From Astrocystis sublimbata (lineage: Eukaryota; Ascomycota; Sordariomycetes; Xylariales; Xylariaceae): a DNA stretch of 64,000 bases. Positions 2,210 to 56,539 of the stretch are shown here, one piece after another. Where the stretch lies: contig JAJNNY010000077.1 of assembly GCA_022453515.1 (NCBI GenBank), positions 1-64,000 on the forward strand. Direction: 5' to 3'. The notes below the pieces were generated by a model, which worked only from the letters and a program-made list of their open reading frames with translations, ran no database searches and was not told where the DNA came from. Numbering within the stretch: position 1 is the stretch's first letter; every line of letters begins with the position of its first letter. The translations under genes were made by a program, and so were the position numbers.

Positions 2210-3987
2210 ATGGCCCATGATAATAGCTACCAGCACAAGCCTCTGGCCTCGCCGTCATCAATCCGTATCCTCAAGCTACTCCCCGCCTCCAGTCGGCAAG
2301 CCCCTGTCCGGTGCACCATCTCGCAGGTTGAGCTGGGCAGCCCAGATGCTAGCTACGAGGCGCTCTCCTACGTCTGGGGAGCCTGCTGATCACTCCCAAT
2401 TGTCTGACCGCGCTCGTTGAACTCCGCCGGCCGCTGCGGGCGCGCACGCTATGGATCGATGCAATCTGCATTGACCAGTTTACTCATGCTGTCGCGACCG
2501 CGGAGCGCAACCAGCAGGTCGCGATAATGGGCGACGTGTATTCCTCGGCAAAATGCGTAATTATATGGCTGGGTCCAGCCGACGACCAGCCGACGTCTCC
2601 ATTATTCAAATACCTGAGGCTTTTAGCGTCTTCCCGGCATCTGGATGGACCGGAGAAGCCACGGCTAGGAGATCGGGAGCATCAGCAGGCCAAACTTGAG
2701 CAACTTGTTCGCCTCCTCGAAAACCCATGGTTTTCGAGAATTTGGACGATGCAGGAAGTCATGGAGCCCGGGCGCTGCACCGTCATGTGCGGTTCATCGA
2801 CCATCTCGTGGCATCGCTTCGTTGACGCGGTACGGGACGCTGGCGCTGACCACCACTCTAGCGCAAACGCCTTGCTCGTATATCTCAGGGGCAACCTACC
2901 CGGAACGTCGTACCCAACACCCCATCCCAGTGATTGGCTGCAGAGATTTCATGATGTCAAGCTACTGAAAGCCATGTGCACCTTGCAATGCAGAGTCCCG
3001 CACGATAAGATCTACGGGCTGCACGCAATTCTTCGAGCGCGGGGCTTACACCTATCACCCCCGGACTATAATAGACCTCTTTCCCAAGTCCTGGAAGAGA
3101 CAGCGAGAACATACGTGCAACGTAGAGGGAAATTGGACATCTTGCGAATAACCCTTCCGCCGGATGAAACAAGCGGCTTGCCCTCATGGGTTCCCGACTG
3201 GCTCGCGGGTGTGGCGATCAGCGAGGTACAGTGCAGTGATATCACGGGGACGGTTCTGGTGTGCTTCGACGACTATCCATTGCAGATGTCTTCATGCCGT
3301 GAAGCTCTTGCCGATGCTACAGACGGAAACTCGCAGGTCGCCGGAGAGCTGAGGGTGAAGGGGAAGTGCATTGGAACGCTCAAAACTGTCAGTGCTGGTA
3401 AGTCCATTGGGGCGCAAAGGGCCGGAGATCATTCTCGATTTCACGAGTTTTTCCCCACGTGTAAAGAGTGGTGTCAAATGATATCGTCAGCGAAGAGCTA
3501 TCCGACCGGGGAGGATCCCGAAGTTGCAGGGCTCTGGACAGTCGCGAATGCTAGACAAAATCTTGGCAACAACGATCCTTTGCATGCCGATCACCTTCGG
3601 ATATGGTTCAGGGCGCTGTTAGAGCACGGCACGCTCCCCTGGGACGCAGATTCGGCCCATGCCATGACGACGAAACACAAAGACCCGCGAAACAGCACTA
3701 TTGGGGCACCAGAAGATTTGGACATAGTACGAATGGTTCAAACTATTGTCAACTATAAGGCGAACTACGCCTTCTTCACTCTCGACAGCGGATATTTTGG
3801 CTCTGCGTTTCGTACATGCCGCGAAGGTGATCACGTTTATTTGTTAGCAGGGCTAGACGTTCCCTGTATTCTGAGACCCCGTGATGAGGGGCTTAGTTTT
3901 GTTGCTATTGCTAACGTCCACGGGGCAATGGAAGGACAGCTTTGGCCGAACAACACAGATGACCTGGAAAGTCTTTCCTTGATATAG
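2210..3987 (+). pseudogene. HET-domain (heterokaryon incompatibility) gene, frame-broken
   Basis: The first in-frame ATG is at 2210. The N-terminus reads as a normal HET protein: KPLASPSSIRILKLLP, then the block YEALSYVWG (ending near 2380). A TGA follows at 2387. The family's next block, ITPNCLTALVELR...LWIDAICIDQ, resumes in a different frame from about 2383 and stays open to 3987. That second frame carries the remaining HET signatures: VYSSAKCVIIWLG, WFSRIWTMQEV, and later PHDKIYGLHAIL and LPSWVPDW. The residues normally between WGxP and the ITPN block are missing, so a small out-of-frame deletion fits better than an intron; no GT...AG pair restores the frame without losing YVWG. HET proteins trigger incompatibility cell death in filamentous fungi. 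The gene is probably inactive as sequenced unless this is an assembly error. Confidence 0.75.
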
Positions 3988-4332: not shown

Positions 4333-5322
4333 CTAGCCACACATATAAACAGGCGTCTCAGTGTGCCAATACGCATACAGATTCTTATTCCCCTTCCGAT
4401 CGACCTTGCTCTGCCGCCGCTTCTCCTCCTTCTGCACCTTGACCATCTGTCTGTCTCTCGTAGCCAGTATCGAACGTTGCTGAGACGCGGTCAAGTGCAT
4501 CAAGCTGGTGCGATCGCTTGCACTCAGACTTGACAACTGATATGCTACCGTTTCCTTTTCTCTTTTATCCCTCTTCGATAAGAGTTGTGTGCCGGATGTA
4601 TCCGAGTCGAGCTCCTCTTTGCTGGGACCGTCTTCTTCGCCAGATGTCGTGTATTCTAAACCGGAAGCTGGGGTACGGGTACGGGTCCGACGACGGATGT
4701 GAGTAGAAGATAGTCCCGCTTGTGATGGTGACGACTGCCTCGATATTATCTTGCCAGACGGCAAGCGGATCGAGTGCTCATCGACGACCAGTAGTTTTTG
4801 GTGCGTAGCCTCCGTCGGTATCCTGTCGCTCCCGTCCTCGCCATCGACCTCAACATCGCTCTCTGCGTCGTCGTCCGACTCAGAGAAACCGTAGAACTCG
4901 GCGTACTCTGATTCGTCCTTTGATATGTCGAATTTACAGTGCCCCTTGCCGGTCATGTGTTGCTGTACGGCCTGTACAGTTACCCGCTCCGTCCCACAAT
5001 GGATACATTCCCGGTACCCGAAGATGACCAGATGTAGATATCGGAAGAGAGTTTCAAGGTCGACTGCTAGATGTTGTCGACTTGGAACGAACAGACTGTG
5101 TGACTTTTGCATATGTACCACACTGTCATCAAAGCTTGACGAGACAGTGGGACAGAAGAGGCATTGCCCAGGGGTAAAAGGTTGCATGTTTGCGTTAAGC
5201 GAGTCGATGGTCTCCCCGTGAGTTGCGGTTATTGAGCCTGCTTCAAGAATCGACGAGGTCGATAGATTCATAGGTAGAGTTGAAGTTGCTGCTGTAGTTG
5301 TGGTTGTGGTTGTGACTATCAT
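4333..5322 (-). CDS. Rei1/ZNF622-like C2H2 zinc-finger protein (divergent paralogue)
   Basis: Single-exon 329-residue protein starting at the ATG of a Thr-rich leader. Two C2H2 fingers of the Rei1 type are visible: CLFCPT...HMQKSH and, after [37 protein letters not shown]. An acidic segment follows ([20 protein letters not shown]). The C-terminus is basic and ends [20 protein letters not shown], a tail I associate with fungal Rei1-related proteins. Rei1/ZNF622 proteins are cytoplasmic 60S ribosome maturation factors that release and recycle Arx1. This copy is shorter than canonical Rei1 and lacks the N-terminal finger, so I read it as a paralogue rather than the essential gene. Its role is open. 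Confidence 0.7.
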
Positions 5323-6670
5323 TGATGAAAGAGAAGTAATTATGCGTTAGACCACTTTAGGTAGTACTGAAACAACTTGGAAGTGTCGCTAATAGTAGTT
5401 GAGAGCTGTGGTATGAGATGTGTGTGTTTATGCAATTCTGTGGAGGGATGCTACGAACTTTATATAATTCTCTTATAATACGTAATTACCCCATAATATC
5501 GCAACCGTTGCTCACTCTCTCAACTTCTCACGAGACGAGGATAGCATAGCGGCTCAAGAGTGAGCTTTCAGCAAGCCTGCGGGCTCAATACTTTCCCGCA
5601 GTGCCCGCGTTGCTAAATTAGCGCGATGCCACGCCACGCTGCACTGCCCTTGGCGCCGAGATCGACCAATGAGATGCTTGCAGACTGCCCTGATAGGTTA
5701 TGAATCATAATGAGGATGCATGAGAAAATCTACGAGGATCTCGGAGCAAAGAGCCTCAACTGGTCGACTAAGGGATCTCAAGTCTGACAATGTCTTGCAA
5801 TGCCTGGAAGAGGTCCCGGCGCCGATCCGGGGTCGCGTCAGGATAGATCCGCATGTAATGGCATGGGTGGCAGCACCATCAATCTACCGTGCCGTTCAGC
5901 TCATATGAGGTCTCCGAAGGAAACCTAAGGAACATCCATGATCGGTTGCAGGGACCATGGAGATAAAGGAAAAGTCACCAATTGATAGTTATCTCCGACA
6001 ACGCCGAGAGAGCCTTGGACTTGCAGGCCCGGCACGCACCACCCTAGAGCTTCACGGCCTTGGCGTCGGAGGTGGCATCAACGATTATCACTGTCTTTCC
6101 TAACCTTACCTCATTGAATGTGAAATTGAATTTAAGAGCAAGTCTAGTGGGCGTGGATGCCAACTTGATGAGTGGAGAGATTAGATACTATAGTTATTGT
6201 ATCGAACCCTTTATATTATGTATATGATTATTTTGAACGGGGTTATATCTTCCCGTCGTAGACGAAAAGGCAGCCGCAGGGGTATCTGCCAGTACTGCAG
6301 TCACAAACTGTTCCTTCCCAACGCACCAGATATCGTGGTATGATACCGCATCATCTATGGTTCGTTAGAGGTACAGTCTGCCTAAATGACATGTTAGCAC
6401 TGCCCAGCGCTAAGATGTTTGAGCGGCTCACTGCAGTGCGCATATGTCTGCTTCTTCTTCTTCTTCCTCCTCTCTCATGATGTGACCTTCGACCGCGGAT
6501 GGCCGAGAAGACCGGCGGGCCTGTGACGATGGGTGCGTCGGAGTACTCTAGTGTTCGTCCTTACGCGCGATAGTTCTGGTGGGCGCTAGCGCATAAGTTG
6601 AGTGGCGCAGGAATGAGCATCGCAGGCTTTGGACGTAGTCGAGTTGGTTGGCACTGATGCAAGGACCTCC
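5323..6670. other. intergenic region without recognised gene
   Basis: About 1.3 kb between the Rei1-like start and the LRP1 stop. The first part is AT-rich and holds TATA-like sequences near 5460-5480, which may serve the Rei1-like promoter. A CTT/CCT-rich run lies at about 6450-6475. No supported gene. Confidence 0.45.
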
Positions 6671-7521
6671 TCATGACTCGGATGATTTCTTGCTCTTCTT
6701 TCCCCTTTTCCTCTTGTCCTTCTTATCCTTCTTGTCGTGTTTCTCTTTCTTCTCTTTCCGTTCGGACTTGTCCTTCTTCGCCTTCTTGACTTTCTTCTTG
6801 GGCTGTTGCTCTACCTGGGGCTCGGCTTCATCGCCCGACTCGTCTTCCGACTGATCGCTGTCCTTCGAAGTGATGTCTTCGCTCGATTTCTCCTCGGCAG
6901 TTGCCACATCCAGTTTGCGCTTGGCTCCCATCTTGGCCTTCAATGCCGCCATGGCGCGTTCCTTTGCGATCATCTCACTCAGCTTCGTGTTGACTTCCTT
7001 ATTGTCCGCAAGATCCGCTCGTATGCTATACATTGTTAGTGCGCCCATTCATGACCAAAGATAGCATGTGAGAATCTAATATGAGATGAAAAATGAAGGG
7101 GAGGACCACAAGTAAAATGAAGCACTGACAAGCTAATGGCGGCCGCTTTGTTGAGGCTCTGCTGGGGCTTCTGGGGAGGAAACTCAATCTTCTTAATCTT
7201 CTCGAAGGACTGGCGCACCCTGGCGAGTTCTTTGGAGATAGGATGCTCCTTAACATCGTCACCGTTGAGACGAAGGGAGCCTGAGATAAGTTGGGAGTCA
7301 GCTTCAATGAAGGCTCATGATAGACATGACCATTCTCACTTACAGAAGAGGGTAGACTCTATAGCATAGGCCATAAGCAAGTAGAGCTTGGCCTTATCGA
7401 GAAGGGGCACTTTCGTAGCGAGGTCGGCGGAGTTGTTGACCAGAGGCTCCAGCGCATCATCGAGGTTGTCGACGGAATCGTCCAGGCGCCCGAGCAAGGG
7501 GAGAATGTTGGCAGGATCCAT
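6671..7521 (-). CDS. LRP1: nuclear exosome cofactor Lrp1/Rrp47 (C1D family)
   Basis: Three exons: 7521-7344, 7280-7130 and 7025-6671, giving 684 nt and 227 residues. Both introns are GT-AG (62 and 104 nt class) and joining them restores the family sequence. The N-terminal Sas10/C1D helical domain begins MDPANILPLLGRLDDSVDNL and continues through KAKLYLLMAYAIESTLFC and HPISKELARVRQSFEKIKKI, the hallmark C1D/Rrp47 stretch. The C-terminus is a long Lys/Glu-rich tail (KKKVKKAKKDKSERKEKKEK and onward) typical of Rrp47. In yeast Rrp47 binds Rrp6 and Mtr4 and helps the nuclear exosome process snoRNA and rRNA precursors. The basic tail fits RNA binding in the nucleus. Confidence 0.92.
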
Positions 7522-8445
7522 TGTGAAGATGAGCGACGAAAGGGTGATGAAGCGCAGATGAACTAGCGCCTGAGCGTTAGACCTCACGGAGTGTCTAGAT
7601 GCAGTTACAAATTACGGGGCGCGAATATGAATATGTTGATCTTCCCCGGAGCGCCGATCTTGATGAAGAGTAACACTCGTAGTAAATAGCGCCTCAACGA
7701 GAATGAACCTTAAGAGTTGTGTTTACGATTCTCGCAAGTTTGTAAGTGCACGCGGTACTTTACTCGCTGGCTGATCTATGGGCCGGCCAACTGAGGGAGG
7801 CAGGCGACCTTGTCGCAGGAGTAGGCGCGTTGTAGGAGAAATTATGGCGGTGTCTCGTGGCAGAAAGCCGATGAGAAGGTACATGGGTACTTAGCCACTG
7901 GCGTGGAGCTTCGCCTTAGCCTCACTTGAAAATGGCGACTTGCTCATTGGTCTGCTGGCAGGCGGGTATCCACACGCCCCACCGCGATCGGACTGGCACG
8001 CTGGGTGAACGGGTCGGTGATGGTTCGCAAAGGGCTGGCGATTGGCAGAAAAATAAAAATGCACTAACTACTCGTAACCTGACATCTGAAAGTCGCCGCC
8101 GTCATGAACATCGCGCCGCCCGCCTTTCTTCGTCCCCGTCTCCGTCTCCGTCCCCGTCCCCAACCCCAACCCCGTCCAGCTCCCTTTCCGAGTTGTGCGA
8201 TTCCATGCTGCCAATGCTGTGCTTCTGAGTTCCCTGGTTCTTCTTTGTCCATGCAACACTTACCTTAGAGGTCCCCGCGTGGCATCCCCTCGCATCGCAT
8301 CCCACTTCGCTTCGTCGTCGACCCCGGCTTCATTTTATGACGTTCCACTTGGAGCCTCCTGAGCCTCCTGGTCGAGCCTGAGTACCGCCAACTCGCCCCT
8401 TCCGGCCACCACTTTGCTCAGACCTTTGAGATGAGATTCATCTAG
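7522..8445. other. divergent intergenic region, possible 5' exon of the reductase-like gene
   Basis: Upstream of LRP1 (minus) and of the PanE-like gene (plus). An ATG at 8104 opens an Arg/Pro-rich frame (MNIAPPAFLRPRLRLRPRP) in the same reading frame as the downstream gene. It could be a first exon with a mitochondrial leader, but I could not fix the splice sites. Confidence 0.3.
8131..8176 (+). repeat. CCGTCT/CCGTCC short tandem repeat
   Basis: Imperfect 6-base units (ccgtct, ccgtcc, then ccaacc) run for about 45 bases. If the ATG at 8104 is used, they encode alternating Arg-Pro/Arg-Leu. Confidence 0.7.
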
Positions 8446-10245
8446 TCGCCCCGACCAGCCTCCACACTGTATTCCCACATCGCCCGCAGGCCGCTCTCGC
8501 GGGCGTGGCCGCGAGTCCGGCGAATACCGCGCAGACTCTCCCCATGGCTCTGCCATAACCTCGACGTGGGCCGGGGGGCCACCACGCACGTCCTCTTCCT
8601 CCACACCACCAATGCCGCCATAGGCACCCCGTCATCCCAGCACCATACACCCTTCCCTGCTGCGAGCCCTGTACCGCTCCCTCCACCACCACGAGCAACG
8701 GCGGAGAATGATTCAGCATACGAAACAACGCTAGCTCCGGAAGCCAGCCCAGTCGAACCACGGGAATCAGAAGTTCATGTCGACGAAGAAGCCGAACCAA
8801 GCACTCCCGTCGAAGCGGATACCAGGGCAGAAACAGTCATAGAGACAGAGATAGAGACCAAGACGGAGAGTAGTGCCAGCGTTACCAGCACTACCAGCAT
8901 CAACAGCGCCGACGGAGCCGCAACGAGCCCTGCCCAGGCTGTTGCTGAAGACATGCAGCACGTGGTGGAAGTACAGCAAGCGCATCACGAGCTACAACAG
9001 CCGTCGGAAATTCTCACTATCAGGGACCAGGACACCAACGTCCCGCTGTCCAGACAGGTCCATATCGTGGGCATAAGCTCACACGCCAGATTCGTCGCTC
9101 ACGCTGTGGCGTCCACGCCTGACATGCCACCCATTGGCATCTATGTCAGTCACCGCAAGCCTTTGATTGGCTGGGGTGAAGAGTTCCGGAGGTTGACTCT
9201 ATATGATGCCCGGAACAAACCCATCTCTTCGGTTGGCATACCATGTCCACAACAGGTACGGGATATACGCTCTATCCCAGCGCACGAAAAGCATGAAACA
9301 GCTCCCGACCAATTCCTGGACAATGTCATCGTCGACACGGAGGCAGCAGCCATCTTTCCCATGATGAGGAACCTGAGCCATCGCATCGACCGCCACACTA
9401 CCATTTGTCTACTTCACCCCGGGCTTGGCCTGATGGAGGCCATCAACAAGGAAATATTTACGGATCCCGACCAAAGACCCAACTTTGTACTCGGTCACAG
9501 CACCCATAGGGTCACCAGAGTGTCGAGCACCATGTACTCGTTAAAGCAGAGGCTATCGGGCACCCTCTACTTGCACGGGGCGACGGAATTCGAGGGCTCG
9601 ACGACCGCGGACCCAGCCATCGCGCACGAGAGGCAATGCCAGACAAAACACCTGGTGCAGCTGCTCTCGTCGACCCCGACGTTGAACGCCATTGGGCTAC
9701 CCTTGGTCCGGTTTCTGTCGTGGAAGCTACCGTGGCTGATATTTTGCTGCGCCGCCGACGCGATATCCGTGGCGCTGGGCTGTAGGTACAAGGAGATCTA
9801 CCACAACCCGCACGCGCGCACCATGTGGGACAACATCCTTGACGAGACCACCTTCATTGTCTCTCAGCTGCCCGAGATACGGGACATACCGCACCGGAGA
9901 GACTATTTCGTGAGCAACGCGCTACGACGGAAGATGCGGACGTACCTGGCGGCGCAAAACAATAACATCAGCCCGTGGGTCAAGCATGTGCGGATGGGGG
10001 TGATGCCGCCGGTGCACTTCTTCAACGGGTACGTGATCCAGCAGGCGGAGGCGCTCGGGCTGAGCCACAAGCACAACAGCACGGCGTATAATATGGTCAG
10101 GGCGCGGACTCGGGCGCGGCGGCGGGAGCTCGACCGTGACATGATGGGCACGACGCCCTACATGATGGACGGGGACCACATCGGGGGCGGACAGCCGCAC
10201 CCCACTCTCGAGGATCTGCTCAGGCTCGAGCTTGAGGAATTATAG
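8446..10245 (+). CDS. ketopantoate reductase (PanE/ApbA)-like protein, start unresolved
   Basis: The frame is open from 8446 to a TAG at 10245. No ATG precedes the conserved domain within it, so the true start must lie upstream across an intron; 8104 is one candidate. The segment from 8446 is Arg-rich (RRPLSRAWPRVRRIPRRL), like a mitochondrial leader. A low-complexity Glu/Thr/Ser linker follows. The domain begins RQVHIVGISSHARFVAHAVA, then PPIGIYVSHR, and NLSHRIDRHTTICLLHPGLGLMEAIN, a pattern of fungal 2-dehydropantoate 2-reductase family proteins. The C-terminal helical half follows (about VKHVRMGVMPPVHFFNGYVI). The dinucleotide-binding GxGxxG is degenerate (GISSHA), so NADPH-dependent catalysis is doubtful. 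Many fungal members act in mitochondria in undefined roles. Family call good, function uncertain. Confidence 0.65.
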   Translation, partial: SPRPASTLYSHIARRPLSRAWPRVRRIPRRLSPWLCHNLDVGRGATTHVLFLHTTNAAIGTPSSQHHTPFPAASPVPLPPPPRATAENDSAYETTLAPEASPVEPRESEVHVDEEAEPSTPVEADTRAETVIETEIETKTESSASVTSTTSINSADGAATSPAQAVAEDMQHVVEVQQAHHELQQPSEILTIRDQDTNVPLSRQVHIVGISSHARFVAHAVASTPDMPPIGIYVSHRKPLIGWGEEFRRLTLYDARNKPISSVGIPCPQQVRDIRSIPAHEKHETAPDQFLDNVIVDTEAAAIFPMMRNLSHRIDRHTTICLLHPGLGLMEAINKEIFTDPDQRPNFVLGHSTHRVTRVSSTMYSLKQRLSGTLYLHGATEFEGSTTADPAIAHERQCQTKHLVQLLSSTPTLNAIGLPLVRFLSWKLPWLIFCCAADAISVALGCRYKEIYHNPHARTMWDNILDETTFIVSQLPEIRDIPHRRDYFVSNALRRKMRTYLAAQNNNISPWVKHVRMGVMPPVHFFNGYVIQQAEALGLSHKHNSTAYNMVRARTRARRRELDRDMMGTTPYMMDGDHIGGGQPHPTLEDLLRLELEEL

Positions 10246-22122: not shown

Positions 22123-25100
22123 TTAACCACAACTCAGATATGACTTGCGTGTCCAGTTTAACCCACAACGCACAGGAACACTGAACGGCTTCCCGCTCTC
22201 AACAAAGGTCCCTCGCATTAAGTTCCAAACCGTAGAGTCGTTCGCCATATCCAATGATGTGTCATCTTCATCCTTGTCCCAAGGTCGCCAACCCTCGTCA
22301 TCGTGCACACACCAGCGTAACGCGACAACCGGAGATCCTGGGTCTAACTTCGAGGTGGCATCCCCCACCGGCGGCACAGCATTTAGTACTAGGAACACAT
22401 ACCCTTCGGCGTCCTGACTACTTGGTCTGTAAACAAGCCGAGGATCGCGGCGGGGTGTAGATGCCGGAAAATAGATCGGGTTACGTAGTGTCGAGACGCT
22501 GTCGCCGTCAAGGACAAGTTTCAGGATTTTGGGACTGCATGTAAGTGGCGGCAGGGCAACTATGACGTGAGAGGTATACCAGTATGTTAGTACAGAGGGA
22601 GGTTCAATCGCTATTAGCGGATCAGCGAGGGTGTATTTAACATGGACGAGATGAGTTGCCGTGATGCCTTTGTTATCTGACGGAAAATTCAGTGATGCTT
22701 TTGTCACACTGCATTCGGTGTATAGTTTCTGCCGAGCGAACGTAATGAAAACACAATGGAGGACATTTCCGCAAGGCGAAAAGTAAAGCTCTGGAATGAT
22801 TGATTAGTCACTGGTACTAAAATTAGTGCCTCATAGCACTTATGTTCTGAACTTACCTCGGGTACTGGCTAATATGAAACCCCCCAACCCATCCGAGATG
22901 CCCGATACTTCTATTGATGTGTGTGTTCCTTCGTCGAGATTTATGACTTCGAGTTGCGACGATTTATACATGAACGCCACGACAGGTTTAGTTGGGTGTG
23001 CGGCACATATGATTTTCGAATACATCAGGGGCTGGTGTGTCCATGGTTGGGTCCAGAAGGGAGCACGACCATTAGATATGATGATGAGATAGCTGGTGTT
23101 CTTCTGATTACCGGCGCTGCTTTCGACATCTGACTCATCAGTGTCCAATTCGGAGATGCCGTGCTCGTCACTAGCTGTCTCCGACAGTGATTCGTCATCA
23201 GAAAATTCATCTTCATCGTCAGATAGTGATTCTTCTGATGCTGTGTCCGAAGACTCGCTGTCATCGTCACTATCTTCGTTGGAACAATCGTTGTGACCTG
23301 AGCTCCATGTTTGAGCACTCCTTTGCGCCATATGAATTACCGAAGCAGAAGACTTGCTGTCGGTCCCATTCACATCGCGGCATCCAAGCATGTCCCAAGG
23401 CAATTTTGATGCCGACAGCAATTCGCCAAGACGCGTGGGAGGTTTGAATCGTTCGCTGTGTTCCCGACTTACTTTCCGGAGATCCATACTGCATGTGTCG
23501 ACGCTCCAGGCAATTAGCTCGTTTTCGATACCATCCTCTAAAGACTGACGTATTACCCATTCGGACATGTTGGACTCCACAGGGAGCTTTTGATGTGACT
23601 GTTTAGGTTGACTCTGAGTCTTGAATAAAGGCTGTTTTAGATGCCTCATTACATCCGGCGGGTCATCTTTCGTTCGGTATGCAACCTCAACAACCAATTT
23701 CCTCCCGCTGAAGCCTAATCCGATGATCTGAGAAGCCGTAAGATCGTGGCTATTGAATGCGTTTTCTAGATTCACGCATTTCACTACTGCTGTCTTTGAA
23801 AGTGGCCGGAGCCAGCAAGAGCTGATGAAAGGTTTCATGGGGACGCACTGATCCAACACTTGAGAATGTGTAATCATCACCTCGCGCCATTCATCGACAA
23901 AATTGCATAGTGATTGGTCCTTGAGGCTGCCATCGGGGGAGCAATCGCTAAGCCAGGTTGGTAAAGGCACCGCGAAGCTGTCGTCGCCCTTCCACTCCCG
24001 GCCTTTGATGGCCATGTTGTAGCCACGCTTATTGCTTATGTATCTCCCGAATATGTATGGAACAACATGACTCTGTACACACAGGCAGTTCCAGAAGTTC
24101 TTGCTACCAATGAACTCCTGAACGGTCTTGCAGGAGACCGGAGATGGTTGCTGGACGAATGCATCGCTTAGATGTTGAAACCAAAATGTAGCTGCATATC
24201 GTAGGAAAGCATGCTCTTTTGGAATATTTTTGTCAAGGAATCCAAAGTCCATGTGCTTGGAGTATCTGCCGTACATGAGATATGTCAGGCAGTTCAGCCC
24301 AATTTCCTCGTGAGCAGCGGACGGCGTAACAAAGTACTTGTGGAGAGACTCGTCAACATCGAGGTCGGAGGTCTTCGGATCCTGCCGAAAGAAATCTCGG
24401 ACGCTTTTGTGACAGAACCTTACGAGTTGAGTCCGAGTTGACCCCGTAATACGCTCTTCCACAATCACTAATGACCCGCATAGTTCATGTATGAGTTCTT
24501 CTTTCGGCAGTCGAGATGCACTATAGTCTTTGCTTCCACGTTTAATTGCTAGTGCATCAAGCAATTCATCGACAGACATGGTCTGTTGTGCCGCGCTTAA
24601 GGTGAGGAATATACGCCTAAGGATGTAAGAGAACTGCACATATGTTTGGGCGTCTATTTCAGACTCACCTGGCCACCGATTGCTCCATTGGACCCAGAGC
24701 GTCGATTTTCGCTAGAGTGCGCGCATAAAAACCATTGAGCTTTTTCGGAAACGTGGCCAATTCAGCTCGAATGTCTGCCTCACTCGTGAGCTTTCCAAGG
24801 ACCTCAGACACGAATCTGGCGATGAGGAAGTTATTGTCGCACTCGGCAGCCCATGCTCGAAGACGGCTCTGACAGCTTATCTTTGTCGAAAGATAACTCC
24901 TGATATCTTCTCGTATGGCGTCTGGACTTGGACGTATCTCAACAGCTTTCATTTTCCGAAGTGTCTTCTCAACCTCTGAAACACGGTTGGTAAAGAGCCA
25001 CCTGGTCGTGCCAAGAGTTGGTCTCCCAATTAGCCACTCCATATGACTCATCATGTCTTTCTCGTCCTCGCATTCATCTATTCCATCGATGACTATGTAA

Positions 25101-26320
25101 AGGTCGTCGTTGCGAGTAATGAGTTCGTGCACGACACTTGCTATGACGCGAAGATTGCTCAAATATGGAGAAAACTGTATTTCCTTCTCATATAAGTCTA
25201 CCAACTTGTCGGACGGCGTTTTGGTAAAACCAAGAAGCTGTAGAGCAAGTGTTCGAAGGCCGTCGGCAACGTATCGATTGGAGTGCTTGCTAAAAGAATA
25301 GAAGAAGTATGCCACCTTCTTGTCCGCTCTGGTCAGATAGTCTATCACCGCGGATGCGAGCACACTTTTCCCGGATCCAGGCTGGGCATTATACCAGAGC
25401 AAGGCGTTCTCTCTAGAGCCGCACCACTCTTGAAACCGTGTATCTTCGAATATCCAAGAGCATGTATTCTCATGTCGTAGATCCAATCGTATCTCACAGT
25501 CGCCCTTGAAGTCGACGCCGTCTCGTCCCATTATCCATTGTCTGATGTTATTCTTTAGCGACTTTTGTTCGGCATCCGCTCTAGCCTGGCGGTCTGCATC
25601 CGTCATTTGGAATTCTATGGCCTGAGATATTCCTAAGTTGATGTGCATATCTTCTTGAAGGCCTTTGAGAGCTTCCTCGGTTTCCTTCTTAAGAGGCGTG
25701 ACCAAAGCTCTAGGAAGAATGCCTCTGGGCTTGGAAGACGATAGTACTTTAGATAACTTGTACCAAAAAGTGATAATCTCCTTGTAAGAGTGCACAAGTC
25801 GGGGGCCTAGGTCGGGGGATGGGGAGAGCCTCTGATAGATTTCCAAGATCCCAGCAACACGCTGCATAGCAACCACGATGATTTCAAGATATTCGTCAAC
25901 AGCTTGGGCCAGCTCTAGAACAATGCGAGCTCCCGAAAAAGCTATGGCAACGCCAGACGGCGCCAGCTGCGCCAGTTGCTCACATCTTTTCAGTACCGAC
26001 TTGAATACCTCAAGAAAGGGGCTCAGCCGATGAAGCAGCTGGTACCCTTTTCCAGCGCGTTTCTTAGCATCGAGTTCTAAAACCGAGCGCTGCAGCTCTA
26101 GAGCTGACACCTCAATCTGTTGCGGCCCGCCATCTGCACCTGGTGTTCCAATGGGGCTTGCAAGTGCCTGCAAAAAAGGATTTTTGGAATCTTCCTTATG
26201 CTTTTCTTTGAGTTCAGACAGGAACTCATCGATCGCGGTGGCGAATGCCCCAGGAGGGGCAGTCTCTCTGGCACCCCTAGCACTCATACTCTGGTTTAGG
26301 CTGGACGCGGAAGGGTCCAT
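22123..26320 (-). CDS. NACHT-domain NLR-like (STAND) protein
   Basis: Three exons: 26320-24669, 24616-22857 and 22790-22123, total 4,080 nt and 1,359 residues. Both introns (52 and 66 nt) are GT-AG and keep the frame. An N-terminal helical region of about 240 residues (RLSPFLEVFKSVLKRCEQLA...) resembles the N-terminal domains of fungal STAND proteins (Goodbye/DUF7708-like; exact family unsure). The NACHT core follows: WIFEDTRFQEW, Walker A AQPGSGKS (312-319) and Walker B LYIVIDGIDEC (407-417), then WLFTNR. A winged-helix-like region comes after (RFCHKSVRDFF). The C-terminal half has an acidic Ser/Asp/Glu stretch and WD-like strands (ending FSPCGNVLHCVF) but no clear tandem repeats. Such proteins are fungal immune or allorecognition receptors. 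The ligand and any partner effector are unknown. Confidence 0.88.
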
Positions 26321-27773
26321 TGCGGAAATGTCAATCTAGGCATGTGTAAAAGTCGCAAGACACTCGGTCACTGATATGGTGTCATTGCAAGTCAATATTC
26401 AACCAGATAATAAAGAGGCAAAATAGCATGTGTATGTGCACACTACTAGTACTAGGTAGCAGAGTATAGGTGAGTAATGAGAGGCAACAAGACATGCATT
26501 GCACGCCTCATTTGCACAGCGATACAATAATTAGCTGTAATGCGATCCGGTCAGGCGGTCGTGATTATGGTAGGGTGGGGGCCAATGTAACACTGGACGG
26601 CAATACCAACAAGATGGTTGAAGGATCGTATTAAACCCGGGAGTGAACCTCAGTCCTGGTCCTGGTATAGTCTAAATAAGTCCCCGCGATCAACTTTTTA
26701 CCCTGTTCGGCTGCCTGCTGGCGTTTGTGGTTGTGAAGCTTTCTCTTTGTAAGCATTATTTTATATTGCCACCCGATTAGCGACTAGGACTCTCCAGAAT
26801 CGCTCTGCAAACCGGGCACCCGTCAACTGAGCGGATTTGAGAATACTCGAATCAACAAGGATGGAGGTGGCTTCCCATATTGATAGCACGGCAACTGTTA
26901 CGTGGCTCAACTCTCTCAACAAGCTTCGAGCTCACAAGGGTATGTGCATATGTACTCAGGGGGCTCCGCCCAGGCGCTGATCAATTCACGATATTTACAA
27001 GTGATGAACTGTTTACCACCAGGAACAGCATAGAACAACTCAATCCAATCATGTTCATTAGGGGGTGATTTTATTCCCAATTGAGCTTGCCCATGCTACT
27101 ATAGAGGCATGAGAGGCGAGAGAGGTTCTATCGATGGTGCAGAACCGGTAACTAATTATAGCAGATCGTGGGGGCTTACACCATGTTCTTCTGTGAGCAG
27201 GGTTGGTGTGGGTCAATCTACCCCTCAAGTACCTATAGATTTGTGTATACAACCCCGGTGACGATAATTGCCTTATACGCATGCAAATGTTGTCTAAAGT
27301 ACATTGTTTCCTTTTTGAGTATCAAGCAGTCGAATACGCTACCGGTGCCCTCATGCTGCTTGGCTGCCATGGCGTAATGAATGCCCCCTGGCTCGCCTCA
27401 TTCCTCTCTTTTAGACCCCTAATCCACTGATGTACCGACTTACCGAATGTTCTAAGTCCTACCAACTTCTTGATGCGTGACAAATTGGGCTTAGCGGGCT
27501 TCGCGCATCCACCCCTTCTGCTCTGGCGGGCGCCTCTGGAACCGCCCACATGCATTTATTCATCCACTGTTTTATCCGGAGAGAACTAGATCCCCAAACG
27601 GATTGAGCTCTTGAACTGCTCTTGCTGGGTTTGACCGTTTCCCAAAACAAGTGAACGAAGCCTCTTGATTGGTTGAGACGGTTGACAGGCGCAGGCTCCG
27701 TAGCCAGCAGTGTTCAGGACTATGTTGTGAATGGACGTGTCCATGTCTCCTTCTGCTTCTGTGGTGTCCTTTC
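26321..27773. other. intergenic region
   Basis: 1.45 kb between the NLR-like start and the kinase-like gene. No supported gene; open frames are short and lack motifs. Confidence 0.45.
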
Positions 27774-48937: not shown

Positions 48938-51900
48938 TTATATACAATCTGAACACCTCGTATGTCCACAATGCCTGCAATAAGCCTCATCTTCGTCTGT
49001 CGTCCACTCATAATAGTCTTCTTCTTTGCAACCACAGCACGTGATCTTGTCGAACGTGAGCTTGTCGATCCTGTTTTCAGGTGCGAGGCTGCTTTCATCA
49101 GACCCAGAGTCAGAAGTATGCTCGCGACTGGAACCCCTGCTAGAATTGCTGTGCTGGTATCTAATTCGACCTCTTATCCTTTTCCGAGTTCCTGGTGGGC
49201 TTGGTGCTCGAGGATGCAAGGAACGTTCATGCTGGTTGTGTGATGGCCCTAATGGAGGGGCCATGACCGCCGGATGTTGATCACCAGGTACGGTCAACTT
49301 GACCAGGCTATAAAAATATTCCAACGTCGACCTCAACGGGTCTTCGTCTTCCTCGTCTTCCCCCTTGTTGTCCAGTGGCTTATCTCCCTCGCTATACTTC
49401 TTTTCGACGCCCTCTAATCCGTCTTCGTCATGATCCACGTGTTCTACTATGCGCCCGCGCGATGGATAATGATGAGGATACCAGGAGGGCGTAAAACCGG
49501 GGGGGTCTAATGAAGTTTTAGGCTCAGGCGGTACCTGCTGCAGGAAAGCATCATCCCTTCTGTCGGAGTTCTCAATCGCCACTTCTCTGCCATGTAAGTG
49601 CTGGTTCTCTGCCTCATCGTTCTGTGTCGTGGAGTTCGCATGTTGGTCTCTGACGAGCTCCACTGCGTGCATTGCCACCCATCCTCGTATTTCGCTGTAC
49701 ATATCGGTCATCATTCGTACCTCTGCCTCCTGAATAGCTGCATCCACAGCTCTGCTCTCGCAGTCACAGTTTTGAGTAGCCGGAGCGTGACAAATCGCAC
49801 AGTCGGGGTCCATACGGATGACAGACTTCCGGCTCTTCAACCGCGTTGCACGGTCAAACACCCTGACAGGGTCGTTGACTTCCAGGTCTAACCCCATGAT
49901 ATCCCGAATGAATCCCCACTCGGAAAGTCGTGTAGCCGATGAAAGGTCAACGTCAACCATATTGTAATGATTGGCTGTTATATTTTCTACCATTTCCGTT
50001 TCAGTGCAGCTTGAGGATAGCGGGTCGTCGTTTCCTGTGTTGCTGACTGGGCGACTCAATGTTTCATAGGTGTCCCCTTCGCTGTCTGAACTGACTTCTG
50101 CCCACTCGGCTGGCTTATTTCCCGTGTTATTGTTGAGTTCAAGTTGAAAATCTCGAATTGTACTCCTAGTTTCAACACTAGACATTACGGATATGTTCGT
50201 TTCGCTGTCTGAGTCGTGCAGATCTGAGATATCCTCCTCGTAACTAGGCAACGACTTGAGAGCGAAATTATGTAGATGTCCGATAAGATGAACTTCCATG
50301 CTGATACTATCGACCTCCTCAGGCTCAATCCCGCAAAGTGGGCATGATCTGAACATTGGGCCAACGGCACGGCCGTTCTTGCTTGCGAGGACTTTCAGCT
50401 GAGGGTCCGTAAGCTTCACTGTGTGCTGCGTCTTCATGTGGGCGAAATATTCGTCTACAGTGTTGCAAACGAATTCACCGTGCGATTTTGACGTGCAACG
50501 CCATCTCAAGGAGTGTTGTCGCATGTGCTTCAGCCATTCGGAAGTGTGCTTGTAAAGGTGGTTGGGAGAGGTACATTCTTCAAACATGCAAACATACGGA
50601 TCGAGGTCCCTCATTATATGCCGACTATAGATGTCAGTTAGTGACAAGTGTATGGTAGATTGCATTTCCAGGTATAAGACATACCGCCACTTCGCCTCGT
50701 CAACAACATCTCTTGTTGGCAAAGCCACGAAGCAATAGGGGCATATTAGCTCTGGAACAGCTTGAAGGCACTCTTCCCAATCACTGGCTAATATTCTTTC
50801 GTACTTTTTCCCTAGAAACACAGTCAGTTGTCGGGGGGCCAGACTCTCAGTCTCTGTGTCAAACAAGCTGAGGTCTCCTTGATGTTCCTTTTCTCTTTTC
50901 TGTTTCAGCATCCTATACTTTCGTCGAACGTTACCACACGGAGCAGGAGGGAAACGGAGTTCCTGATGGTGGCTTATTGCAACACTCTTAGATGCTGCTA
51001 CAGAAGGAGCGGACGCCTTTTGGAAATTCTGGGGCGACAATGTTGTCGCAGTCACTGCTACTGATTTCGCGGTGTTTCTAGTATTTTCCTTGGAAGCAAT
51101 TGTCTCGCTGGAGTCTTGCTCTCGTGATCGATCTATTGTAGGTTTTATGGCGGGCGGACCTTGAGGCTGTATGATGGTGGATTGTTGCGGTTCCCGCCGA
51201 GATTGCTTATCGTACCTGCCATATTTAGCCCTGCGGTATAGAACCCGTTTGCGACGTTGCAACATTGTGCTAGCTAGACGGTGCTGGATAGTATCGGTAG
51301 CACCAGGAAACCTATCCCGTACGTGGTTGGTGAACATGGCGAAGAGAAACGGTGCGGCATCATTCCCTTCGTCATCACCAATTTTGAACTCTGCAACTGC
51401 TGCATCACTCTGTGTCTCTTTGCTTGCTCGGCGGATAGTATTCGAGAACTTGTGAAGGAGGCTGACTTCATTCAAGATCTCGCGGAAAGCATTCTCAAGT
51501 CTGTCGTCAATTGTTGGTGTAGATCCTTCATTGGCGGGACGTAGCGTGCCGAGTATCTGGAAGCCTGAAATATGCTCTATTAGTATGATGGGACAGGGTA
51601 TCTGCCTATCTACATAGCATGACTCCCCTATCACAATTATAAGGACTTACATTCCCGAAGACGGTAGTCTAAAGCCTCCAGGACAGCGACCACTGCGTCC
51701 CGAACTTCAGGGGCCGCCCGGAGACGGTGATCTAGAGACGCACGGTCGGAGACGAAAACCTTTATGTTTGAACCCCATAGGGAGAAGCGGGCGAGTTGGT
51801 CCTCCACTAAAGTCAGTTCCCGGGGATGAATGGCAGCAGCCTGATTCAAGCACTGTTGGAACGACTGAAGACACAAGTTCGCGCATTCTGCGACCGTCAC

Positions 51901-51939
51901 ACTGGAAGTTTGTTGATGTTGGTCATCTGTTCCGGCCAT
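48938..51939 (-). CDS. fungal C2H2 zinc-finger protein with STAND-type N-terminus
   Basis: Two exons, 51939-51651 and 51564-48938, total 2,916 nt and 971 residues. The N-terminal ~100 residues (FSLWGSNIKVFVSDRASLDH...; ALDYRLREC) match a domain that in many filamentous fungi precedes NACHT, kinase or zinc-finger modules. In the middle lie zinc-finger units: LICPYCFVALP, VCMFEECTSPNHLYKHTSEW followed by LKHMRQH, FVCNTVDEYFAHMKTQH, and FRSCPLCGIEPEEV...HLIGHLHNF. Two further Cys clusters occur near the end (CAICHAPATQNCDC; ITCCGCKEEDYY...CRHCGHTRCSDC). The gene is head-to-head with the subtilase gene, 307 bases between start codons, so the two could share a promoter. Exact role unknown; nucleic-acid or protein binding is expected. 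Confidence 0.83.
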
Positions 51940-52246
51940 TGATCCAATGTCGAAATCACAGAATGATGGATAAAAGAAAGGATGTTTTTACCTCATTTTG
52001 GGCGACCAAGACTTCCAAGATCTCGAACAGTAAATCTCGACCGGGGTCATCTTGGCGGGTTACATAAGAGCGTAGTATTCGGGCTGATGCGGGGTCTGCG
52101 CACCCGAGTGGCACGAGCTATTTGTCGGCTGCATCCTGCTCATCACAGTCTCTCGTTACTCCGTTCTCGCCGGAAAAACTCAAGCCTCAACAATCTACCA
52201 GTTAGCTCCGGCTGGCATTGTCCAGTTGAAAGAACAATGTCAAAAG
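51940..52246. promoter_or_regulatory. bidirectional intergenic region between zinc-finger and subtilase genes
   Basis: 307 bases separate the divergent start codons. The frame of the subtilase gene is open back to about 52087 without an ATG (IYQLAPAGIVQLKEQ), so the subtilase may have an unseen 5' exon here. I identify no specific operator. Confidence 0.4.
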
Positions 52247-55200
52247 ATGGGCCTCTTCACTGCTACTGGTGACACCAACACCGTCTCCACAGCATACCGC
52301 ACAATACAAGAGATCGCCACCGTTATCAGGGCGGTTGAAGAGGACGATGCGCTCAAAGCCTTCTACGCCCATCTTACAGCTTACTGTATCATCATACGTG
52401 ACCATCTAGGTCGCATTAGCCAGGCTGCTGTTGGTCTGGATCAAGAGCTCTATACTAGGCTTTTGAAGCGGCTTGAATGCGTCATTACAACCAATACTCA
52501 TACAACTCTCAAGGAAAATGCAGCCAACAACACTGTCGGCGCGAAGCTCGTCGCGCTCAATTACCTTTGGGGTGATATCCGCAAGAGCAAGAGTCAAAAC
52601 ATCAAGCTTGAGCTTATCCGATCGTGCCTGGACTTCGGTAAAACACCCGAAAAGCGTAATGAGTTCATCCAATCGCTCTTCACCTCTGAAGGGGACATCA
52701 GGAAGCTGTACCCGGAGGATCAAGCGGAATGGCTAGCGGAGAGTCTCACTACTCATAAACCTGTCGGTGAGCCACCGTACGCCGTGCGAATCGCAGCACA
52801 GACGGTTTTCGATGCTTTAACCGCTTGCAAAGACTGTCCATGCAACCCAGAGCACGATTTCAATGCTAGGATATGTTTGGGCACATATAGAGAGCCCGAT
52901 CCCGGCCCCAAAGCAAAGGTGGATAACGAGCTTGGGTTTGACCTATTTATTTCAATGATGGAAGAGTGGCATGAGGCGCGTGTCAATACAGCAACAGAAA
53001 CAGTTGTCCAATTTGCAGTCAGCGACGCAGCAGGCCAATCCCGATCAAGCAAAAAGGACAGGTTGAACAAGCCCATGAAGATCAAGAGGCTGTGTGAGCC
53101 TATCATGAAGATCAAAACCATGACGGCCTATCGTCTCAATTTAAGGGTTATCCGTGGCCGGTTGTTCAAAGTGCAGTCGCAAAAGAGCAATGCTATCTTT
53201 GACACTACCCTGAACTCCATATCCTTGGAGCAGATTCTTCACGGGTGGTCGCGCTCCTTCACCGAGAGAACGAGGCGGGTCCTCGCAGTGATCCTCAGCT
53301 CATCCGTCCTTCACCTATTTGATACCCCGTGGCTGCAGCCTGTGTGGAGTTCCGCCAATGTTTTGTTCTTCCGCACAGCCACCGGCGCCGTTCCCTTGAA
53401 ACCCTTCATTCAAGCCCAAATTTCCGGCTCGCTTCAACGACAATGCTTTGCGAAGACTATAGAGGAAGCAGAATTAGAAAACGTCAATCATCAGGAAATA
53501 GTCCTGAATAGCACCAATCCCGACCATATTGATGCCGACGATACAGACTCCTCCGACGATATTGACCCTGATGACATTGATCCGGACGACTGGATTCATC
53601 ACCAATGTCCATCGCTCATCTCACTGGCGGTTGTGTTGATGGAAGTTTATTTCGGTACGCCTTTCAAAAGTCTCGCAAAGCGATATGCCGTTGAACTGGG
53701 AGAGGACCAAGAGTTGCGCAGCTCTACCAGACTGATCGATACTACTCTTGTGTTTGATGCCTGCAAAGGGGAAATTCCAGAGAACTGCTTGTTTCTTTCT
53801 GCTATTGAAAATTGTCTGGATCCCTCCAAGTGGGAAGATGTCGAAGGCTATGTGCTAGACAAAGAAACCTTACAAACCAGGATCTACGACGAGATTGTTC
53901 GACCCCTAGAGACTGAACTGAGTCAAGCTTACAGCTCTATTCCAATTGGGAATCTTGACAGCTTTGCACAAAGTTTGGATTTTGCGAATTGGGACCAGGC
54001 CGTCCAGCCGCTAAACCGCCAAGTGAAGCTTGTCACGCAGACGGGGCACTCATTTGCTACCACCCGGGACTCCAGCCCATTCTCAGAACACTCAGAACTA
54101 AATGATGTGAACGATTACTCTTCAGTCCATGCAGGCCTTCGACCGGGTTTTCAAGGCCATGCGCCTCTCAAGCAAGGCTACTTGCCCACCTCACGTAGTG
54201 GTCACAACCCAGCTACTGATGCCGTACCTTTGTCGACTTATACATCTTTCAAGTTCTTCGATGACGAAACAGCCTCGGAGGCTCATGATCCGTCATCGTG
54301 AGTGTATAATATTCTAGGGGCGAAGACGACCCCTGGAGAAGTGGTCTTGTTATGTGAAAATTCACTAACCACATCGTTATAGGTGTCGAAGCTACCTAGA
54401 TTGGAAGAATAAATATCATGAAGTGTATGAGAAATATATTCCAGGACAGCAAGGAAGCTGTTGCGCACCACCGGTCAGGATCGCGATTCTAGACACTGGA
54501 TTGGATATAACACACCCGGACATAGAGGCTCGCATAGAAAACATCAAGGGGAAGTACAATTGGCTTCAGGATAAGTTCAAGCAGTCCGTGCACGATCGCA
54601 ACGGACACGGCACGTTCACCGCCAGTCTCGCTCTCGACTACGCGCCCGATGCAGACCTCTACATAGCCAAGATTGCAGAGAACAAGCCTTCGAACCCCAA
54701 GATTGTGGCTGAGGTATGTAAACGTAGCATATACTGAACATGCGGACTATCAGAGGTAGAATTAACCATGCACACAGGCCATCAATTATGCGGTTTCAGT
54801 ATGGAAAGTCGACATCATTTCGATGTCGTTCGGCTTTCCGACTTGTGATATAGAAGGCTACCAGGACCTTGAGAGTGCTCTCGATAATGCATACAACAAC
54901 AAGGTCCTTCTTTTTGCTGCAGCTTCGAATAACGGCGGTCGGCTCGGCCGCTCGTTTCCTGCTCGGGAGCCGACGGTTATCGCAGTACATGCAACTGATG
55001 CAAATGGCAATCGGTCTCCATTCAGCCCTACCGCAACGGATGATGATATCAACATAGCATCCATTGGCGAGGCTGTAGAATCATCTTGGCCCGTCCATCT
55101 ATGTGATGAAGAGGCTTTAGACCCGAGTTATGTCCGATACAAATCGGGCACTTCATTTGCAACCCCAATAGTCACAGGTATCGCAGCGTTTCTTCTGCTA

Positions 55201-55413
55201 TATGCTAGGATACATCTACCGTCTAAAGCTTCTCTGTTGAAGAGTCATAAAAGAATGAAGGCGGTACTAAGAAAGGTAGCAGAGAAGGGGATCAATCATA
55301 CACGACGGGATGGCTACCATTTCATCGATCTGAGCTTACATGCTGATAGTTTATTTGGAACGAGCAAGGATCATATCGATGCAACAATAACTAACATCAT
55401 GATGATGACATAA
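52247..55413 (+). CDS. DUF7580-subtilisin (peptidase S8) fusion protease
   Basis: Three exons: 52247-54297, 54383-54713 and 54778-55413, total 3,018 nt and 1,005 residues from the first ATG. The coding frame is open about 160 bases further upstream without an ATG, so the N-terminus may be longer. Residues about 340-470 carry the DUF7580 marks RVLAVILSSSVLHLFDTPWL and SLAVVLMEVYFGTP. A DDxD-rich linker (DDIDPDDIDPDDW) lies between them. The C-terminal subtilase has a complete triad: Asp721 in IAILDTGLD, His759 in NGHGTFTA, Ser920 in SGTSFATP, with oxyanion Asn845 in AAASNNGG. No signal peptide is visible, so the protease is probably cytosolic. It sits between the C2H2 gene (divergent) and the gasdermin-like gene (convergent, 124 bases). 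Confidence 0.9.
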
Positions 55414-55537
55414 AATGTATATATTGTACATGTACGAGGCGTGTCGATGATCATGTTATGTAGTCAACTCAAATCAATACATACCGTGGCAGGAACGAAA
55501 CCCTATGAATGAGGTACTTGATACAAGAACGTTTTTG

Positions 55538-56539
55538 TTACCCAACCTCTTCCCTCATTCGATTCAGCTGTGAGCGACGAGCTATGTCTGAAGTTTCCCC
55601 ATCCAGACCAATCGTAGAAGGCGAGATTGCGAATAGCACGAACTCATCGTCATCAATCAAAATTTCCTCCACAAGACCTCCCTCGACTTGGTTGTCGATC
55701 TCCTGTTCCATTATAATCAATTCCGGCCCATTCTTCGTCTCGGTTGCGGCATCCATTAATGTACCTTTTGCATAATCATCTTCCCTCAGTTGCCCAGTTC
55801 TCTTCCCAACCATGACCCTCCGGACTCTAAATGCAAATAAGAAGCTGCTATCCGTCTCCCAAGTCACGTTTCCTCGATCACCTGACGCCCCTCCGACTTC
55901 AACCCCCCCTCTCATTGGGACGCCACCCCAGGTTGTTGCATCAACCTCAGGACTCAAACCGCCACTGATAATACGGGCTTGGGGCGACTCAGCTTTGGCG
56001 CCGCTAGCTATCTTCAAGCCTGTGACAATGTAAATGGGTTTACGGTATCGTGACTTGGCCAGGTAGCGCTGCACCGAATCCGTGTCTACACACGCCTGCA
56101 AGTAATCATGGTCTGGGTAAAACTGCTTCGTTTCCAGCGCGTCAAAACTGAAGCGAAGTGAATCTCTAGGACACCGAATGAGTCAGCGTGTATAATGTTG
56201 ACGCGAATATGAACACAGTTGTGCAGATGAATGGTAGATAGAAGATGTGAAATCTCACTCAGACTCCCAGCTTGCTGTGGCATCAACTCCAATACCTAAA
56301 ATCATAGACAAAAGTCTCCCGAAGACTCCAAATCCCCCAGTTCGTGACTTCTCTGTCGAGAACATGAATTGAGTCTTTGACGACGTGAATATTTCCGAGT
56401 TGATCTTTGGGCCTCTACACAATGGGCGCTCCATCGTCTTAAGCGACGTGAAGACATTGCCAAGTTGAACGGGACTGGATGGCGACGCAGGTAGATCCCA
56501 TGTTGGCGCAAGGATAAAGGAAGGCTTGCGATTGGCCAT
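55538..56539 (-). CDS. candidate fungal gasdermin-like pore-forming protein
   Basis: Two exons, 56539-56259 and 56165-55538, GTGAGA...CCTAG intron, total 909 nt and 302 residues. The start MANRKPSFILAPTWDLP is the first ATG; upstream codons are non-ATG. A hydrophobic GVFGRLLSMILGIGVDA ends exon 1. Then FSFDALETKQFYPDHDYLQA, the strand RKPIYIVTGLKIASG (135-149), a Gly-rich loop (GGVPMRGGVEVGGASGDRG), and the strand FLFAFRVRRVMVGK (202-215). The two strands and the loop between them resemble the corresponding segments of the gasdermin N-terminal domain, where the YVVTE-like strand and the AFRV-like strand occur in the same order. An acidic tail of about 80 residues could be the inhibitory end. 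Size fits fungal gasdermins. The call is by pattern and neighbourhood, not alignment; otherwise it is an uncharacterised fungal protein. Confidence 0.55.

Follow-up and report, generated by a model that had tools for sequence, protein, structure and literature searches.

The 64-kb window analysed here, a stretch of contig C165 in the 42.6-Mb genome assembly of Astrocystis sublimbata (Xylariaceae), contains at positions 48938-56539 a cluster of three genes encoding a C2H2 zinc-finger protein, a protease that combines a DUF7580 domain with a subtilase (S8) domain, and a fungal gasdermin. The gene models were assembled from splice signals, and rebuilding them reproduced the coordinates, strands and the 307- and 124-base gaps given in an initial annotation of the window. 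The zinc-finger gene had likewise been placed at the right position and on the right strand, but its structure was corrected by the addition of a second intron (50684-50625). The features of the locus are as follows:

51939-48938, minus strand: C2H2 zinc-finger gene, 951 residues, exons 51939-51651, 51564-50685 and 50624-48938; the spliced model equals the deposited protein P0105
49757-49801, minus strand: conserved CxxC...CxC motif (PDCAICHAP...CDCE) of the zinc-finger protein
50276-50743, minus strand: zinc-finger stretch with C2H2-like fingers, including intron 50684-50625
51940-52246: 307-bp upstream region shared by the divergent (head-to-head) zinc-finger and protease genes
52247-55413, plus strand: DUF7580-subtilase gene, 1005 residues, exons 52247-54297, 54383-54713 and 54778-55413
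52247-52711, plus strand: N-terminal all-helical region of the protease, residues 1-155
52784-53926, plus strand: DUF7580 domain, with a predicted degenerate protein kinase fold
54474-55281, plus strand: subtilase (S8) domain with D721, H759, N845 and S920, split by intron 54714-54777
55414-55537: 124-bp gap between the 3' ends of the tail-to-tail protease and gasdermin genes
56539-55538, minus strand: fungal gasdermin gene, 302 residues, exons 56539-56259 and 56165-55538
55541-55753, minus strand: C-terminal tail of the gasdermin, residues 232-302

The 302-residue product is identical (100% over its full length) to a deposited A. sublimbata protein of equal length (P0001). Pfam gives no match at thresholds up to E 10; a single-sequence phmmer search of the PDB matched RCD-1 (E 3.2e-6). 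A profile built from 15 sequences of the family (A1) matched RCD-1-1 (E 1.7e-13), RCD-1-2 (E 5.1e-11) and the HET-Q1 pore (E 3e-9), with bacterial gasdermins following at E about 0.01. No competing PDB match of weight was found by sequence for any other fold. On the basis of this pore-domain homology to both RCD-1 and HET-Q1, the protein is a fungal gasdermin, which bears out at the sequence level the gasdermin-like identity assigned to it initially. The HET-Q1 pore chain aligns up to position 228 of the profile, and the tail that lies beyond it (residues 232-302) is variable and acidic in the family alignment and ends in a partly conserved stretch. HET-Q2 cuts HET-Q1 at Phe238, removing 40 residues (PMC10989679; PMC12881547). 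By analogy, the tail would be inhibitory and would be removed by the protease, with cleavage presumably at about residues 228-240, directly following the conserved DYxKGA stretch.

The protease matches Pfam DUF7580 (PF24476) at residues 180-560 (E 2e-31) and Peptidase_S8 (PF00082) at residues 715-962 (E 5.3e-32). The triad residues D721, H759 and S920 are intact, as is N845 of the oxyanion hole, in agreement with the catalytically complete enzyme described at the outset. All four residues occur in 34 of 36 aligned sequences, that of the window among them, and the other two have a gap at one of the columns. A. sublimbata's own protease is absent among the listed matches of the protein search, and the gene model therefore rests on the relatives of similar length (alignment A2). 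The first residues contain no hydrophobic signal stretch by eye, which makes a cytosolic location likely. When the whole model was compared with known structures using Foldseek, the top match was the intracellular subtilisin 7y6m (E 5.6e-11); the matches listed were all subtilisin-type proteases, so that this search is uninformative on the DUF7580 domain. A fold search of a viral library gave six subtilase-type matches followed by mixed proteins, including kinases, at non-significant E values.

A model of the N-terminal 600 residues, on the other hand, gave structure matches to kinases over residues 182-564. The segment following a long helix (residues 340-357) has the consensus WLQPTWSSS in 52 aligned rows. 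A conserved Asp was seen neither there nor at residues 380-392, and motifs resembling HRD or DFG were not found (placement by eye). DUF7580 is predicted to have a degenerate protein kinase fold and would then be a pseudokinase. The proposal that this domain acts as a sensor becomes more concrete with such a predicted fold, although the fold is not proof of sensing. The preceding residues 1-155 are all-helical in AlphaFold2 models (block predicted local distance difference test scores mostly 76-94). They gave no HeLo-type Pfam match and are barely covered by structure searches, which is an absence rather than a disproof. No NACHT or NB-ARC domain was found by Pfam in the protease, the zinc-finger protein or their aligned relatives, and by this domain criterion neither protein is an NLR.

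The zinc-finger protein was compared with its family in an alignment of 28 sequences (A3), the columns of which are numbered on a 971-residue reading that keeps intron 2. This first model contained a 20-residue insert that was unique among the aligned rows and had splice signals at its ends, and removal of the corresponding 60-base intron (50684-50625) gave a 951-residue protein that matches P0105 letter for letter. Within the finger stretch, C371, C374, C422, C427, H443, H447, C453, C504, C507 and H526 are invariant and H472, H477 and H522 near-invariant, as expected for the Cys and His ligands of C2H2-type fingers; further downstream, C685, C688, C696 and C698 of the CxxC...CxC motif are also invariant. 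No Pfam zinc-finger model matched the window protein; P0105 carries PF26082 as a precomputed label. No PDB chain matched the A3 profile. The STAND-type N-terminus attributed to this protein in the initial annotation could not be confirmed, since at E 0.01 Pfam gave no relevant match for the 28 sequences of the alignment. Some relatives (P0211, P0224 and P0186) carry fused TPR or WD40 repeats, which are common among the proteases encoded in fungal gasdermin clusters (PMC10197012), and this favours a role in signalling. Parts of the final 300 residues (window 48938-49837) have 62-73% identical copies at contigs C13, C146 and C102, other genomic matches of the gene being 26-44% identical. The part of the C-terminus with the CDC motif may, from these copies, be a mobile domain.

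To place the cluster in its genome, related loci were located by searches of the assembly, and their surroundings, in stretches of at most 10 kb, were scanned with profiles of the three window families. Protein searches gave five gasdermin loci (the window, C2, C132, C46 and C164) and the family search gave five DUF7580 loci above the cut-off (the window, C2, C132, C135 and C141). At four of the five DUF7580 loci the gene is paired head-to-head with a zinc-finger gene, with less than 1.5 kb between matched frames, and at three of the five a gasdermin adjoins it. The zinc-finger protein search listed nine finger-type loci in the 42.6 Mb, a lower bound that does not include C135; even with 100 such loci, any one gene would have only a ∼2% chance of lying within 5 kb of one, so that four out of five is not due to chance. 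Some of the matches at sister loci run across stop codons, through introns or decay, and the copies of the zinc-finger and DUF7580 genes within the genome have diverged to saturation, making a comparison of their co-divergence of no use. Outside the window, the loci are:

C132: gasdermin, DUF7580-S8 gene and zinc-finger gene head-to-head; the zinc-finger gene matches weakly at its N-terminus (1e-4) and at 2e-13 in the fingers
C2: gasdermin and DUF7580-S8 genes tail-to-tail; the nearest correctly oriented zinc-finger gene is some 10 kb distant
C141: zinc-finger and DUF7580-S8 genes head-to-head, without a gasdermin match
C135: zinc-finger and DUF7580 genes head-to-head, without an S8 match
C104: zinc-finger gene head-to-head with a weaker DUF7580 match (E 9.8e-8), no S8 match; reached from the finger side and outside the five
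C46 (L017): gasdermin and a 374-residue S8 frame without DUF7580; the zinc-finger profile gave no match within the stretch read
C164: gasdermin beside a same-strand zinc-finger gene, at the end of the contig; neither DUF7580 nor S8 matched

The head-to-head layout of the window is therefore seen again at C132, C135, C141 and C104. At C2, the intervening DNA is mostly of 33-37% G+C and has no 150-residue frame; about 7 kb of it (L036:1-7000) is of 33-36% G+C. This AT-rich stretch may be an insertion, perhaps of a mutated repeat, by which the gene set was split. The S8 frame at C46 is near HET-Q2 in length and adjoins a 1112-residue HET-domain frame. At C141, a 284-residue frame (L019:2337-3188, plus strand) lies tail-to-tail with the DUF7580-S8 gene, at the place held by the gasdermin in the window. 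Its likeness to a gasdermin by eye found no support from sequence or profile comparison, no family was assigned by Pfam or NCBIfam, and neither a second genome copy nor a match in plasmid records was found; it is left out of the gasdermin counts, and may be another kind of effector or a gasdermin that has diverged strongly.

The persistence of the linkage in other fungi, which had been put forward as a test of the three-gene set, was judged by shared contigs and gene numbers in addition to the recurrence within the genome, and by these measures the linkage is kept. Contigs of equal size under one organism name were taken as the same contig, a proxy that on large contigs indicates the same scaffold but not adjacency; adjacency rests on consecutive gene tags and on the loci of A. 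sublimbata itself, JGI-style DRAFT numbers not being counted as ordered. The rows compared were 13 of 18 for gasdermin, 58 of 86 for DUF7580 and 89 of the 120 listed for the zinc-finger protein (145 found); left out were rows that lack an organism name, the weaker zinc-finger rows and two S8 rows that are bacterial or unnamed. Protein lists of this kind miss remote relatives, and a missing row does not equate to absence.

One of the 13 named gasdermin rows is from A. sublimbata and 12 are from other species. For the latter, the same contig also holds a DUF7580-S8 row in 8 cases, a zinc-finger row in 7 and one or both in 11, and all three genes occur on one contig in Xylaria castorea, Nemania sp., Biscogniauxia sp. 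and Coniochaeta ligniaria. The two gasdermin/protease pairs that have ordered numbers are both consecutive (Xylaria curta g4378/g4379 and X. multiplex g288/g289). DUF7580 and zinc-finger rows fall on one contig in 28 of the 32 other organisms listed with both. The four others are Fusarium falciforme, F. lateritium, F. solani and F. graminearum, the rows of which probably come from different assemblies because their printed tags differ in prefix. The contig shared in F. sp. LHS14.1 is 2.8 Mb long, and its zinc-finger row may be a different copy. Of the named DUF7580-S8 rows, 19/39 share a contig with a zinc-finger row and 8/39 with a gasdermin row. Where gene numbers are ordered, 8 of 9 DUF7580/zinc-finger pairs are consecutive, with S8 in Scytalidium lignicola, Hypoxylon texense and Neonectria ditissima, with PNP_UDP (nucleoside-phosphorylase) in F. 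decemcellulare, F. gaditjirri and F. pseudograminearum, and with no effector domain listed in F. austroafricanum and F. culmorum; in the ninth, from F. avenaceum, the numbers are twelve apart. A scan of the 224 listed proteins also revealed DUF7580, S8 and gasdermin in one predicted protein of Cylindrodendrum (P0051), and a zinc-finger part with a gasdermin in one of Microdochium trichocladiopsis (P0183). These may be merged gene models, which even so would represent neighbouring genes. P0183 is in addition labelled Zn2Cys6, PHD and SANT-like, and is either a merged model or a strange fusion.

The PNP_UDP domain takes the place of S8 in 11 named DUF7580 rows, ten from Fusarium and one from Thelonectria (re-scanned in P0079 and P0071, and a precomputed label in the others). 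Seven of the 11 share a contig with a zinc-finger row, three of them with consecutive numbers. In the F. graminearum group, the DUF7580 proteins P0087-P0090 add AIG1/MMR_HSR1 GTPase labels (re-scanned in P0087), two of them together with PNP_UDP, and no listed zinc-finger row falls on the contig of any of the four. Other DUF7580 rows from Fusarium retain S8. Because the partner gene stays while the effector domain changes, the zinc-finger protein and DUF7580 appear to be the constant element. The effector attached to DUF7580 looks like the changeable part, which is a protease with a gasdermin in the window and a nucleoside-phosphorylase domain in several Fusarium species and Thelonectria. PNP_UDP is a named immune signalling domain (PMC12881547), and both S8 and PNP_UDP are named among the domains of fungal NLRs (PMC10197012, PMC12881547). 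Exchange of the killing domain next to a constant partner is a logic known from fungal NLRs, found here in proteins without NACHT or NB-ARC. As a side observation, contig C161 of A. sublimbata (L040:4638-9489, plus strand) has a zinc-finger match at 4638-5714 followed by a same-strand PNP_UDP frame at 7162-9489, although this genome also carries the protease version at other loci.

About 80% of fungal gasdermin genes adjoin protease genes (PMC10197012; PMC12881547), and the proteases of such clusters are multidomain, some being fused to predicted kinase-like domains, in clusters of two or three genes (PMC12881547, PMC10197012, PMC10989679). The gene families, the open reading frames of the window, the catalytic residues, the arrangement and its recurrence are read directly from the sequences. 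With these as a basis, we propose, with a probability of about 0.7, that the likely cytosolic helical-pseudokinase-subtilisin protease cuts the tail of the neighbouring gasdermin, likely under the control of the zinc-finger partner. In this scheme the zinc-finger protein and the pseudokinase-like part together would form a sensor or switch that detects or relays a trigger, which is the most tentative step. The subtilisin domain would then turn active or reach its target, and the activated protease would remove about the last 60-75 residues of the gasdermin. The freed N-terminal part would form membrane pores leading to death of the cell compartment, as reported for HET-Q1/HET-Q2. The zinc-finger protein itself could be a sensor, an adaptor or a transcription regulator of the divergent pair.

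An alternative account of the third gene is that the protease and gasdermin alone constitute the module and that the zinc-finger gene is a neighbour or does no more than regulate transcription at the locus. Published clusters usually have two genes (PMC10197012), C46 carries a gasdermin and an S8 frame with no zinc-finger match in the stretch read, and C2H2 motifs are compatible with a DNA-binding regulator. However, the zinc-finger gene is head-to-head with DUF7580 even where no protease or gasdermin is matched (C135, C104), and it shares contigs with DUF7580-PNP_UDP genes, in three cases with consecutive numbers. The linkage is therefore to DUF7580 rather than to the gasdermin pair, and we consider this account unlikely, if still the strongest of those set against the proposed mechanism.

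The gasdermin might also serve some other end than protease-triggered death. Animal gasdermin pores release proteins, and such release would fit a role for the cluster in a non-death process, for example the export of proteins via gasdermin pores in development or fruiting. Secretion is named as a role to explore (PMC12881547), but the fungal gasdermins with a reported function act in cell death (PMC12881547, PMC10989679, PMC10197012), and we regard such a role as improbable. Even less credence is given to killing in the manner of RCD-1, by pairing with a variant partner after cell fusion and with the protease incidental. RCD-1 is indeed the best profile match, ahead of HET-Q1; nevertheless, the gasdermin has an acidic tail past its pore part, 8 of 12 named relatives share a contig with a DUF7580-S8 protease, and RCD-1 is described as an exception (PMC12881547, PMC10197012).

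The pairing of a gasdermin gene with a neighbouring protease gene makes the locus a member of an already described kind of system. As in the het-Q1/het-Q2 pair of Podospora anserina and the Q2L clusters, a gasdermin gene with a short C-terminal tail lies by an S8 protease gene with a full set of catalytic residues, at a distance (124 bp, tail-to-tail) well within the 10 kb used to define Q2L clusters, and the likeness to het-Q1/het-Q2 noted initially is upheld. HET-Q2 has 388 residues (PMC10989679), whereas the present protease has 1005 and includes a helical region and DUF7580; a zinc-finger gene is attached, and related gene pairs have PNP_UDP instead of the protease. RCD-1 of Neurospora crassa belongs to the same gasdermin family but reportedly requires a pair of allelic variants rather than cleavage (PMC12881547), while here a protease gene adjoins. 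MLKL and fungal helical-bundle/pseudokinase proteins similarly have a helical region followed by a predicted pseudokinase, but here a protease follows and the gasdermin is the predicted executioner.

The protease-kinase-like fusions described in fungal gasdermin clusters (PMC12881547) probably cover the present architecture in general terms, although the passage names neither DUF7580, a zinc-finger partner nor an exchange of protease for PNP_UDP. No mention of DUF7580 was found in the literature searched, and zinc fingers or C2H2 are not mentioned in PMC10197012 and PMC12881547. Literature searches on gasdermins, zinc fingers or C2H2 and incompatibility yielded no paper that, judged by its listing, describes such a cluster, although the primary survey (Clave et al. 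2022) may list the architecture. The view that the three-part set is not a known system thus does not extend to the protease-gasdermin pair. What is new here is the zinc-finger partner and the putative sensor part, and neither the partner nor the effector exchange was found described.

The stimuli that activate the putative sensors of fungal death pathways are a major open question (PMC12881547). The cluster supplies a defined candidate sensor pair, with which this question becomes testable; the pair occurs four to six times in the A. sublimbata genome, and its two genes share contigs across many ascomycetes. That relatives of the zinc-finger and protease genes are linked in many other fungi, in some cases with another predicted killing domain, is a hint of an alarm unit that fungi reuse. 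We tentatively extend this to the suggestion, which we rate at somewhat below even odds, that the divergent C2H2 and DUF7580-pseudokinase pair is a portable two-protein fungal immune receptor with interchangeable killers. In Xylariales these would be subtilisin and gasdermin, in Fusarium and Thelonectria enzymes of the nucleoside-phosphorylase type, and there may be others. If true, it would be a receptor class beside the NLRs for fungal regulated cell death.

A scan of the 307-bp gap for bacterial-type promoters found nothing, which has no bearing in a fungus. Elsewhere in the same 64 kb there are a HET-domain frame (2353-3984, plus strand) and a NACHT-type frame (NPHP3_N/NACHT; 22843-26335, minus strand), with a winged-helix match below the cut-off in the next frame. 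With the HET-domain and NACHT-type frames, the window resembles a small immune gene neighbourhood.

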